A stretch of DNA of 64,000 nt from assembly GCA_016794025.1 (NCBI GenBank), contig JAEUKX010000031.1, forward strand, positions 62,001 to 126,000, given 5' to 3'. The position numbers were made by a program, and so were the translations under genes. The notes under the pieces were generated by a model, which searched no databases, was not told where the DNA came from, and saw only the letters and a list, made by a program, of their open reading frames with translations. Shown here one piece after another: positions 50,623 through 54,716 of the stretch (within the stretch, counting starts at the first letter, position 1; every line of letters begins with the position of its first letter). This stretch comes from Rhodospirillales bacterium. GTDB lineage: Bacteria > Pseudomonadota > Alphaproteobacteria > CACIAM-22H2.

Positions 50623-51618
50623 TCAGAACCAGCCGCGCTTCTTGAAATAGAGATAGGGAAGGACCGCGGACGCGAGCATCAGCGCGATCGCGAGCGGGTA
50701 GCCGAATGTCCAGTCGAGTTCGGGCATATGCTTGAAGTTCATGCCGTACATCGTGCCGACGAGCGTGGGCGGCATCAGCACGACCGAGACGACCGAGAAA
50801 ATCTTGATGATGCGGTTCTGCTCGACGTTGATGAGGCCGAGCGTGGCATCGAGGAGGAAGTTGACCTTGCGGCTGTCGAAGTCGGCATGCTCCATCAGCG
50901 AGGTCAGGTCGCGGTTGAGCGTCTTGAGCCGCGAGGCGATCTCCTTCGAGCGCTTGCGCAAGTCCGCATCGATCGTCACGTCGAGGAAGCGGACGAGCCG
51001 CACAAGCCCCAGCATGCTCTCGCGCGCGGTCGAGCAGAGATCCTCGATCCGGCCGAGCTGGCTCAGCACCTGCTGGAATTCCTGTTCCTGCTCGATCTGG
51101 CGCTGCGCGGGCGCGCCGGTGCGCCCGAAGATGCCGCGCGAAATCGTGTCGAGATCGAGCCCCGCTTTCTCGAGAATATCGGCGATCCGGTCGACGAACG
51201 TCTCGAGCAGGCCCAGCAACGCCTCTTCGCCCGACGTGCAGGTGGACGGCTGCCGGACGATGCGCGTGGCGTAGGTCTGGACCGGGCGCGGATCGTTGTA
51301 GCGGACGGTCACGAGGCTGTGGTTGGCGAGGACGAACGTGAAGGCATCGGCTGTCGGATTCGTCTCGTCCGATCGCGCGAGGATCGTCGCGGTCATGTAG
51401 GCCGCGCCGTTCTCGGTATAGAGACGCGACGAAGGTTCGATCTCGAGCATCTCGGCGTGCGACGGGATTGCGAGATTGAATGTCGCGTCGACCCGCGCTC
51501 GATCCTCTTCGGTCGGTTCGAACAGATCGATCCAGACCGCCGATGTCGGCAGCTTCTCGTCGGGCGCGATCGAGCGGCGCTCGATCGTCCCGTTCATCGG
51601 GATGTACGCGAAGATCAT
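50623..51618 (-). CDS. corA: CorA-family magnesium transporter
   Basis: A 331-residue CorA protein with the pore signature YGMNFKHMPELDW between two C-terminal helices and a basic end (LYFKKRGWF). The soluble domain has AVWIDLFEPTEEDRARVDAT, close to classical CorA magnesium channels and closer than the gene at 27712-28716. The ATG is at 51618. Its upstream region is shared with divergently read gcrA. Confidence 0.94.
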   Translation of the reverse strand: MIFAYIPMNGTIERRSIAPDEKLPTSAVWIDLFEPTEEDRARVDATFNLAIPSHAEMLEIEPSSRLYTENGAAYMTATILARSDETNPTADAFTFVLANHSLVTVRYNDPRPVQTYATRIVRQPSTCTSGEEALLGLLETFVDRIADILEKAGLDLDTISRGIFGRTGAPAQRQIEQEQEFQQVLSQLGRIEDLCSTARESMLGLVRLVRFLDVTIDADLRKRSKEIASRLKTLNRDLTSLMEHADFDSRKVNFLLDATLGLINVEQNRIIKIFSVVSVVLMPPTLVGTMYGMNFKHMPELDWTFGYPLAIALMLASAVLPYLYFKKRGWF

Positions 51619-51685
51619 GGAAAGGTTCCAATTTCACGAATCCGCAGGCCGCGCAATCGCGACTTGGTTTCTACATCTTGTGAAC

Positions 51686-51694
51686 TTACCCACA
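51686..51694 (+). promoter_or_regulatory. DnaA-box-like site TTACCCACA
   Basis: One mismatch from the consensus DnaA box TTATCCACA. It lies about 18 bases upstream of the gcrA -35 element. Confidence 0.45.
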
Positions 51695-51711
51695 AGCCCT
51701 TGTAGGCGGGC

Positions 51712-51740
51712 TTGACTCGGATGCCCCCCAAGATCACAAT
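51712..51740 (+). promoter_or_regulatory. Putative gcrA promoter with GANTC site
   Basis: TTGACT (51712-51717) and CACAAT (51735-51740) are 17 bases apart. GACTC (51714-51718), a CcrM-type GANTC methylation site, overlaps the -35 element. In Caulobacter, GcrA acts at promoters with methylated GANTC sites, so self-control is possible. Confidence 0.55.
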
Positions 51741-51760
51741 ATGTTGTGGGGAAACTGGAA

Positions 51761-51769
51761 TTATCCACA
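51761..51769 (+). promoter_or_regulatory. DnaA box TTATCCACA in the gcrA leader
   Basis: A perfect consensus DnaA box 46 bases before the gcrA start. A weaker minus-strand copy (TTCCCCACA, two mismatches) is at 51745-51753. In Caulobacter crescentus DnaA stimulates gcrA transcription, which makes a cluster here meaningful. Confidence 0.6.
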
Positions 51770-51814
51770 ACCCCTAGAAGTTCATAATCCGTCGAAAAAT
51801 CAAGGGGATGGGGC

Positions 51815-52306
51815 ATGGATTGGACACCCGAGCAGATCACCGAGCTCACCCGCCTGTGGGGGGAGGGGCTGACGACGGCGGAGATCGGAAAACGTCTGGG
51901 CATCTCTAAGAATGCCGTTGTCGGCAAGGCGCATCGCCTGCATCTGCCCGCACGCCCCTCGCCGATCAAGCGCACCGGACCCCGGCCCCAGATCTTCCGC
52001 CAGGCGACAGCACGGCCTTCTCAGCCGAGCGCGCCGCGCCTCCCGCAGGCCCCGCGCGAGCCGCGCATGCCCTCCGCCGCCCAGCAGACGAGTGCTGCCG
52101 CGCTGAAGGCACTGGCCAATCAGCCGTCCGCCAAGCGCCTGCCGATGATGGCGCTGTCGGCCAGCACCTGCCGCTGGCCGATCGGCGATCCGGGCGATGC
52201 GGAGTTCCACTTCTGCGGCGAACGCTCGCTCGAAGGCAAGCCCTACTGCTCCACGCACGCATCGATCGCGTACGTCAAGATGAAGCCGAAGACCGAGGCG
52301 GCATGA
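51815..52306 (+). CDS. gcrA: GcrA cell-cycle regulator
   Basis: A 163-residue protein with the unmistakable GcrA N-terminal helix-turn-helix (MDWTPEQITELTRLWGEGL, then IGKRLGISKNAVVGKAHRL) and the C-terminal sigma-70-binding motif region (STCRWPIGDPGDAEFHFCG, CSTHASIAYVK). GcrA is a cofactor of RNA polymerase at promoters with N6-methylated GANTC in alphaproteobacteria. A strong intrinsic terminator follows at 52343-52377. The promoter region has a GANTC site and DnaA boxes. Confidence 0.97.
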   Translation: MDWTPEQITELTRLWGEGLTTAEIGKRLGISKNAVVGKAHRLHLPARPSPIKRTGPRPQIFRQATARPSQPSAPRLPQAPREPRMPSAAQQTSAAALKALANQPSAKRLPMMALSASTCRWPIGDPGDAEFHFCGERSLEGKPYCSTHASIAYVKMKPKTEAA

Positions 52307-52953: not shown

Positions 52954-53124
52954 GATCAGGCGCTGGCTCGACTTTCCGTATGGCTTGGAGTTAGCTTCGG
53001 CAGGCTCAGCCGCACCCGTTGTGGCTGATCTGCCACAGTCCCGAGAGGATGAATTGACCCTGCCGAATAATCCCGAAAGGCCGCCGTTGTCCCTGTGTCG
53101 AGCGGCATCAGGCCGGGGTGCGTC

Positions 53125-53661
53125 GTGAACGAGGACACGCTCCGCCAGATCCGCGAGGAAATGGTTGCCCTGCTGCCGCGACTCCGGCGCTTTGCGCGCG
53201 GGCTCGCGGGAGCGCCCGACCAGGCCGACGATCTGGTTCAGGCCGCGTGCGAACGCGCGCTGACCCGGATCGACCAGTACCAGCCGGGAACCCGTCTGGA
53301 CAGCTGGATGTTCCGCATCGTCCAGACGATCTGGCTCGATGACAGGCGCGCCAGCAAGGTGCGCACCGGCGAAGGCCGGATCGACGCGGAACTGGCCGGG
53401 GACGAGCTCGCTTTCGACGGCGGGCGCGGGATCGAAGCGCACATGACCTACGAGGCCGTGCGCGCGGCGATGGCAAAACTGCCGGAGGAACAGCGCGCCG
53501 TGCTGACGCTCGTCTGCGTGGAAGGCCAGAGCTACAAGGAGGCCGCAGCCGCACTGGAGATACCCATCGGCACGGTAATGAGCCGGCTCGCGCGCGCGCG
53601 CACCGCACTTGCGCGCATGCTCGGCGAAACGGGCACTTCGCTCGCCTCGCCGGCGGAATAG
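53125..53661 (+). CDS. ECF-type RNA polymerase sigma factor
   Basis: A 178-residue sigma factor with region 2 (APDQADDLVQAACERALTRI, then LDSWMFRIVQTIWLDDRR) and region 4 (LPEEQRAVLTLVCVEGQSY, then EAAAALEIPIGTVMSRLARA). I use the GTG at 53125, which has GGGGTG upstream; an in-frame GTG at 53095 lacks a ribosome-binding site. The next gene, 14 bases downstream, is a membrane anti-sigma factor, so this is a self-contained sigma/anti-sigma pair that responds to an envelope signal. Confidence 0.93.
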   Translation: MNEDTLRQIREEMVALLPRLRRFARGLAGAPDQADDLVQAACERALTRIDQYQPGTRLDSWMFRIVQTIWLDDRRASKVRTGEGRIDAELAGDELAFDGGRGIEAHMTYEAVRAAMAKLPEEQRAVLTLVCVEGQSYKEAAAALEIPIGTVMSRLARARTALARMLGETGTSLASPAE

Positions 53662-53675
53662 GGAACGGATAGGTT

Positions 53676-54716
53676 ATGGAACGCCGCTTCGACGACGAGA
53701 CACTGATGCGCTACGCCGACGGCACCGCCGCGGCGGAAGACGCCCGTGCGCTCGAAGCGGCGCTGCCTGCCGACGCTTTGCTTGCCGCGCGCGTGGCGAT
53801 GTTCCGCCGTACGGCCGAACTTGCGCGCGCGGCACTGAACGAGGTGCTGCATGAGCCCGTGCCGCAGCGCCTTGTCGACGCCATCGCGAACGCGCCGGTC
53901 GCGTATTTCGACGACGAGACGCTGATGGCCTACGCCGACGGCGCGCTCGACGCGGCAACCGGCGCGCGCGTCGCCAGGGCCGCCCGCACCGATGCGCGCA
54001 TCGCACGCCGGATCGAGGCGTTCCGCCGCACGGCGGCACTCGCGCGCGCCGCCTTTGCACCCGTCGTCGACGAACCGGTGCCCGAACGCCTGATCGCGGC
54101 GATACGCGCCGCACCGGCCGGGAATGTCGTCCACTTTCCCGCCCGCCGCGGCATCTTCCGCAAGCCGCTTGCCACCGCCGTCGCGGCCTGCGTGGCGCTG
54201 CTTGTCGTGCTCGGCGCCGGCGGCATCTTCACCGGCCGCATCCAGCCGCAGATCGGCGGGCTCGAGCTGGCCTCGACCGACCGCTGGCTCGACAACGTCG
54301 CCGGCTTCTACAACCTCGCCGAGGCGACGCAGGCGAGCGAAGGGCGCCTGCTGGTCGACTTCTCGGCCGACGACATGGGCGAGCTCGGCAAGTGGTTTGG
54401 CGCGAAGCTCAACCGCAACCTCGCGATCCCCGACCTCTCCCAGCAGGGCTTCGCGCTGCAGGGCGGGCGCATGCTCATCGTCGGCGGAAAGCCGGCCGCC
54501 CAGCTTCTCTACAAGAACGACGCGAACGAAGTGGTCGGCCTCGTGATCGCGTTCTCGGCGCGCCACGAGCAGGGCCCGCGCATCGATCGCCGCCAGGGCG
54601 TCAACGTCGTCCACTGGCATCGCGACGGCTACGCCTACGCGTTCGCGGGCAAGATCGACGGGCAGCGCCTGCGCGCGCTCGCCGACCGCGCCTGGGCCGA
54701 TCTCGAAGCGATCTGA
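53676..54716 (+). CDS. Membrane anti-sigma factor with duplicated N-terminal domain
   Basis: A 346-residue protein. Residues 5-74 and 78-147 are a gapless tandem repeat with an exact 73-residue offset; both start FDDETLM.YADG and share FRRTA.LARAA and EPVP.RL. By hand count 38 of 70 positions are identical. The repeats are cytoplasmic, then a membrane helix (about 165-185, LATAVAACVALLVVLGAGG) leads to a periplasmic domain of about 150 residues. Neither repeat has the HxxxCxxC zinc motif. It should hold the upstream ECF sigma factor at the membrane. Two sigma-binding modules in one chain is unusual. Confidence 0.85.
   Translation: MERRFDDETLMRYADGTAAAEDARALEAALPADALLAARVAMFRRTAELARAALNEVLHEPVPQRLVDAIANAPVAYFDDETLMAYADGALDAATGARVARAARTDARIARRIEAFRRTAALARAAFAPVVDEPVPERLIAAIRAAPAGNVVHFPARRGIFRKPLATAVAACVALLVVLGAGGIFTGRIQPQIGGLELASTDRWLDNVAGFYNLAEATQASEGRLLVDFSADDMGELGKWFGAKLNRNLAIPDLSQQGFALQGGRMLIVGGKPAAQLLYKNDANEVVGLVIAFSARHEQGPRIDRRQGVNVVHWHRDGYAYAFAGKIDGQRLRALADRAWADLEAI

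Follow-up and report, generated by a model that had tools for sequence, protein, structure and literature searches.

The gcrA locus and its promoter elements

The window analyzed here, a stretch of 64,000 nucleotides, comes from a Tagaea-like Rhodospirillales draft genome; among named congeners, Tagaea sp. CACIAM 22H2 (locus L082) is the closest. It contains gcrA and a divergently oriented corA-like gene, which have a common intergenic region at 51619–51814. The genes and sequence elements are as follows.

50623–51618, minus strand: corA-like Mg2+ transporter gene, divergent from gcrA (Pfam PF01544, E = 7.4e-50)
51638–51642, unstranded: second GANTC (GAATC), outside the core promoter; position not generally conserved
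51686–51695, plus strand: upstream predicted DnaA box, TTACCCACA followed by A (box at 51686–51694), with one mismatch; TTACCCACAA is invariant in 11/11 congeners
51692–51703, unstranded: dyad ACAA-GCCC-TTGT over the upstream DnaA box, including CAA-N4-TTG; ACAA-N4-TTGT occurs in 11/11 congeners
51712–51717, plus strand: predicted -35 element TTGACT, from a promoter scan and the family alignment
51714–51718, unstranded: GANTC (GACTC), the CcrM target, on the -35 element; TTGACTC also occurs in congeners and in genera g2, g3, g4, and g6
51735–51740, plus strand: predicted -10 element CACAAT; CAC[AT]A[TG] in nearly all aligned family members
51736–51747, unstranded: second dyad ACAA-TATG-TTGT, in the -10/start region; present in 9/11 congeners, with related dyads there in other families
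51745–51753, minus strand: weak reverse box TTCCCCACA, with two mismatches; unconserved and so unsupported as a part of the promoter
51761–51770, plus strand: downstream perfect DnaA box, TTATCCACA followed by A (box at 51761–51769); exact in 10/11 congeners
51815–52306, plus strand: gcrA coding sequence, 163 amino acids (Pfam PF07750, E = 1.9e-38, residues 1–157)

The preliminary description had proposed a cluster of DnaA boxes around a promoter carrying a GANTC site, and all of the elements that it named for the gcrA promoter were recovered within 51619–51814 at the coordinates listed here. The combination TTGACT–17 bp–CACAAT (51712–51740) has nine of 12 consensus matches (shuffled sequences give 0.2 such promoters) and was the sole sigma-70-like promoter detected in 51560–51840. 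The upstream box starts 26 bp 5′ of the start of the -35 element, with a predicted center at approximately -57, and the downstream box covers approximately positions +14 to +22 relative to the predicted transcription start; the three box-like sites together span 84 bases. Because GACTC and TTGACT share four bases, both CcrM-target adenines are inside the -35 hexamer, the predicted methylated residues being A51715 on the plus strand and the partner of T51717 on the minus strand. Two dyads of the NtrX type (CAA-N2–5-TTG) are present in the gcrA promoter, at 51693–51702 and 51737–51746. No full CtrA site (TTAA-N7-TTAA) was found, and TTAA does not occur anywhere in 51619–51814; such full sites are present in seven of 87 other gcrA upstream regions.

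The full-length GcrA orthologues among the congeners are 83–96% identical. In the relatives, the genes upstream of gcrA vary, and the boxes travel with gcrA, not with one particular neighbor. Early replication of gcrA is plausible because dnaA is located approximately 53 kb away in G006 and approximately 153 kb away in G004, two congeners; the GC skew data are weak, locating the origin only loosely, close to gcrA in G006 and more distant in G004. Shortly 3′ of gcrA, an ECF-type sigma factor gene was noted at 53095–53661, followed by an ORF of 346 amino acids (53676–54716) that could, as a guess, be its anti-sigma partner.

Conservation of the DnaA boxes within the genus

In terms of number alone, the boxes are at the chance level. 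The window contains three boxes with ≤1 mismatch (2.5 expected) and 50 with ≤2 mismatches (47.5 expected), and the 14 genome-wide occurrences of the perfect box are the same as for its reversed control. These counts would fit a chance gathering of short motifs, an explanation that is contradicted by the conservation of the sites. Among the 11 genomes of the genus set, which includes that of the window, the other ten are 57–85% identical to it in the aligned columns of the region. Nevertheless, TTACCCACAA, at the upstream box, is invariant in all 11, and TTATCCACAA, at the downstream box, has one substitution in a single genome (exact in 10/11, the remaining one being TTTTCCACAA). Together with the ribosome-binding-site stretch, the two good boxes are the most highly conserved 10-mers of the intergenic region, with mean identities of 1.00 and 0.99, where the region averages 0.65; in a permuted-column control (2000 trials), the best 10-mer had a 95% point of 0.945 and a maximum of 0.991. 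With this genus-wide invariance, and with the near-constant spacing and class-wide enrichment described below, a chance origin of the cluster is hardly credible; the position and conservation of the boxes are confirmed to be beyond chance. The proposed cluster thus stands for its two good boxes, conserved in 11/11 genomes, but not for its third member: the reverse box occurs at a chance-level frequency and lacks conservation, and was rejected as a functional DnaA site.

The two-box composite TTAYCCACAA-N50–78-TTWTCCACAA is found at gcrA in 11/11 congeners. Away from gcrA, it has one match in 23 family genomes, 5′ of a lexA-like gene of G008.

As a separate observation, the promoter of a lexA-like gene situated behind moeA (L113 1500–1690, contig C9 of the window's genome; L218 2620–2820) has a perfect DnaA box directly 5′ of a TTGAC -35 element, plus a LexA-type site, GAAC-N7-GAAC. 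The combination is present in six of 11 congeners, with LexA assigned from the translation by eye, and our literature search found no paper naming both a DnaA box and a lexA promoter. Two further sites were noted in the window's genome: inverted DnaA boxes, ATCCACAA-GGGA-TTGTGGAT, 5′ of a pentapeptide-repeat protein gene (L116 1485–1510, contig C66), and a cluster of three DnaA-box-like sites lying between a uvrC-like gene and those that follow it (L120 1486–1522, contig C90).

Geometry of the promoter across the family

The distance from the start of the -10 element to the start of the downstream box is 26 bp in g1 (the genus of the window), g2, g6, and one species of g4, and 28 bp in the other g4 species. 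The stretch between the two is mostly unconserved despite this near-constant distance. On the other side of the promoter, the upstream box starts 26–28 bp before the -35 element in the genus of the window and 30 bp before it in g3. Genera g5 and g7 have kept gcrA, and no good boxes were found there at the corresponding place. The Acetobacteraceae-type loci fetched (within L042–L110) mostly have one same-strand TT[TGA]TCCACA, located approximately 95–116 bp 5′ of the start codon; a GANTC often follows approximately 15 bp beyond this single box. In four Acetobacteraceae with a recognizable TTGAC, the distance between the box and the -35 element is 38 bp, which exceeds that in Tagaea by approximately one helical turn.

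These positions bear on the sign of the control. An upstream box near -57 fits the position of an activator, and a box at +14 to +22 fits that of a roadblock or limiter. DnaA might instead act as a repressor only, with both boxes bracketing the promoter and hindering the polymerase, so that gcrA would rise once DnaA is drawn to newly copied DNA. The perfect downstream box, kept in most genera of the family (g1, g2, g4, and g6) at its near-constant distance past the predicted start, is consistent with this; at +14, such a box might serve repression alone. However, gcrA of Caulobacter crescentus, which has one DnaA box, is activated by DnaA (PMC3193534), and in the Acetobacteraceae the box occupies the upstream position, which resembles that of an activator; we therefore regard repression alone as rather unlikely.

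The -10/start region itself (51734–51749 in the window) is a dyad in several families, its variants being TCACAATATGTTGTRG in the genus of the window, TCACTATATATAGTAG in g5, and CTACYGTATNTNGTAG in the Acetobacteraceae; the count for TAC-N8-GTA is 15 (3.2 expected).

DnaA boxes at gcrA across the Alphaproteobacteria

We collected the upstream regions of gcrA (-250 to -1) from the genus, from named genomes, and from a sample of the class spread over families. The loci were picked by GcrA similarity, the class matches fetched being the better-scoring ones, and a motif was used to place the start codons; thinning at 80% identity over the first 60 residues left 87 regions, and stretches at -600 to -350 served as controls (n = 84). 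The exact box TTATCCACA is present in 15 of the 87 regions, compared with 0.15 in shuffled sequences (never more than one) and 0/84 controls. For TT[ATG][TC]CCACA, the corresponding numbers are 37/87, 1.0, and 1/84. DnaA boxes at gcrA are thus enriched approximately 100-fold across the Alphaproteobacteria, and in an unbiased count of 6-mers in these regions, TCCACA ranks top.

An earlier survey reported DnaA motifs at gcrA in few species, without taxonomic conservation, and concluded that the Caulobacter DnaA–GcrA–CtrA wiring is not conserved throughout the alphaproteobacteria (Brilli et al. 2010; PMC2877005). Our counts disagree with that survey for the step from DnaA to gcrA. Because of the 11/11 conservation and the class-wide enrichment, the link between replication start and gcrA looks like widespread wiring, not a peculiarity of Caulobacter. 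The control of gcrA by DnaA put forward in the preliminary description is, as a prediction, well supported by the conservation within the genus, the near-constant spacing in the family, and this enrichment. Control of gcrA by the replication initiator thereby becomes a general rule open to test across the class.

A composite of DnaA box and inverted repeat

The upstream box is overlapped by ACAA-N4-TTGT in 11/11 congeners, with variable bases in the N4 gap. When dyads of all 64 trimers were scanned at gaps of 0–12 in the 87 regions, CAA-N4-TTG was the most enriched (23/87, compared with 3.5). A TTG occurs exactly 5 nt past 22 of 78 DnaA boxes and at most two times at any other offset; TTWTCCACAA-N4-TTG is therefore a rigid composite that recurs at gcrA boxes, a count to which shared ancestry may partly contribute. 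In whole genomes, exact boxes followed by TTG show some excess of N4 away from gcrA as well, and most of those inspected sit within ORFs. Inverted pairs of DnaA boxes with N4 were also considered as a general alphaproteobacterial rule and rejected, since TCCACAA-Nx-TTGTGGA has no N4 preference (two of 17 genomic places). Because these inverted pairs lack the preference and the inspected places away from gcrA are mostly in ORFs, the N4 composite looks linked to gcrA, with its exclusivity unproven.

The invariance and class-wide rank of this dyad, and its fixed offset from the boxes, could mean that what is conserved is chiefly a binding site for some other dimeric factor reading CAA-N4-TTG, such as NtrX, and that the likeness to a DnaA box comes from overlap. 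In Sinorhizobium meliloti, NtrX binds CAAN2–5TTG at gcrA and represses it (PMC9223101). Against this, the downstream box of the genus of the window has no TTG partner and is still almost perfectly conserved, and it is the whole 9-mer TTATCCACA that is conserved and enriched, beyond CACAA alone. We consider a site for another factor, with the likeness to a DnaA box due to overlap, distinctly improbable. More tentatively than our preferred reading of DnaA control, a DnaA box followed by N4 and TTG may form a composite operator common to gcrA promoters throughout the class, where DnaA and a second reader of the palindrome (NtrX-like or new) would compete or cooperate on overlapping DNA. If so, replication start and a second signal would be integrated at one element of 17 bp.

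GANTC on the -35 element and methylation

GACTC coincides with the -35 element (TTGACTC) in four of the 11 congeners: the genome of the window, G007, G008, and G005. Three others (G002, G003, and G004) carry TTGACTTG; in these, GACTC follows 9 bp beyond and lies only in the spacer between -35 and -10. The remaining four (G001, G006, G009, and G010) have TTGACGG and a promoter without GANTC. In the family, TTGACTC is the -35 element in five genera (that of the window, g2, g3, g4, and g6); because it is common to these genera with unrelated spacers, it was probably in the family ancestor. In g7, the element is TTGACAG or TTGACGG. The GcrA protein tree of the family left the genus unresolved, so that no count of GANTC losses could be derived from it.

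A match to the RAMA domain (PF18755), by which CcrM was recognized, was found in 11/11 genus genomes, and the window has fewer GANTC sites than expected (116, compared with 330). Class-wide, GANTC is mildly enriched upstream of gcrA (0.74 per 150 bp, compared with 0.49). As a class-wide rule, GANTC on the -35 element was rejected: TTGANTC just mildly exceeds shuffled sequences, and TTGAC is followed by TC at five places in 36 regions.

Thus, in the comparison of close relatives, the boxes of the preliminary description held up, and its GANTC site did so only in part. Its suggestion that the methylation state also sets gcrA expression is favored by the RAMA domain, the depletion of GANTC, and the five genera with TTGACTC, but the site is off the -35 element in seven of 11 congeners. 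With four congeners whose promoter lacks any GANTC and three whose only promoter GANTC is in the spacer, methylation cannot be essential; methylation control that varies among lineages is plausible.

Self-control of gcrA had also been suggested. GcrA could act through the methylated GACTC on the -35 element, compatibly with DnaA control and in addition to it. The geometry is as at P1 of C. crescentus ctrA, where GcrA covers the -35 element and the adjacent GANTC (PMC3667746), and TTGACTC recurs in five genera; however, the seven congeners without GACTC on the -35 element still have GcrA and the CcrM domain. Furthermore, the gcrA promoter of Agrobacterium tumefaciens is less active when methylated even in Escherichia coli, which has no GcrA or other alphaproteobacterial regulators (PMC11514494). 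This result would fit m6A within the -35 element disturbing sigma, and because the effect occurs in E. coli, self-control by GcrA, which we judge to be unlikely, is no more probable than a direct effect of methylation on sigma.

Proposed control of gcrA and comparison with known systems

On balance, we consider it moderately likely that gcrA has a sigma-70 promoter controlled by DnaA, at which the upstream box helps, the downstream box limits, and CcrM methylation of the -35 element adds a layer. That DnaA binds, whether each box activates or limits, and how methylation acts are inferred from the sequences. DnaA at the upstream box (center approximately -57) would help RNA polymerase to start gcrA, and DnaA at the strong box at approximately +14 to +22 would limit or time it. 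In the species of the window, full methylation of the CcrM site would weaken the promoter, and hemi-methylation after passage of the fork would relieve it; methylation would be a second layer, dispensable at the scale of the genus. Because natural gcrA promoters differ in whether the -35 element carries GANTC, they offer many cases in which the inputs of DnaA and of methylation can be told apart.

The locus resembles gcrA of C. crescentus in having DnaA boxes in the promoter of this replication-linked master regulator. One box is reported there (PMC3193534), whereas the core promoter here has a box on either side, both on the same strand, with a near-constant distance from the start to the downstream box, and the full CtrA site of the Caulobacter-type gcrA promoter is absent. 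The ctrA P1 promoter (PMC3667746) similarly has a GANTC by the -35 element, a place protected by GcrA on hemi-methylated DNA; in our case, the gene is gcrA itself, and binding of GcrA is putative. As in the NtrX-bound gcrA promoter of S. meliloti (PMC9223101), CAA-Nx-TTG dyads are present, but here N4 is fixed and the upstream dyad is fused to a DnaA box. With gcrA of A. tumefaciens (PMC11514494), the locus has in common GANTC at gcrA, so that a response to methylation would be expected here, but that promoter has six GANTC sites in 250 bp, whereas here a single one in the core, on the -35 element, is lost in some congeners. DnaA-controlled gcrA is itself already known; the layout, in which two boxes bracket the promoter, is new, and the methylation site varies among lineages.
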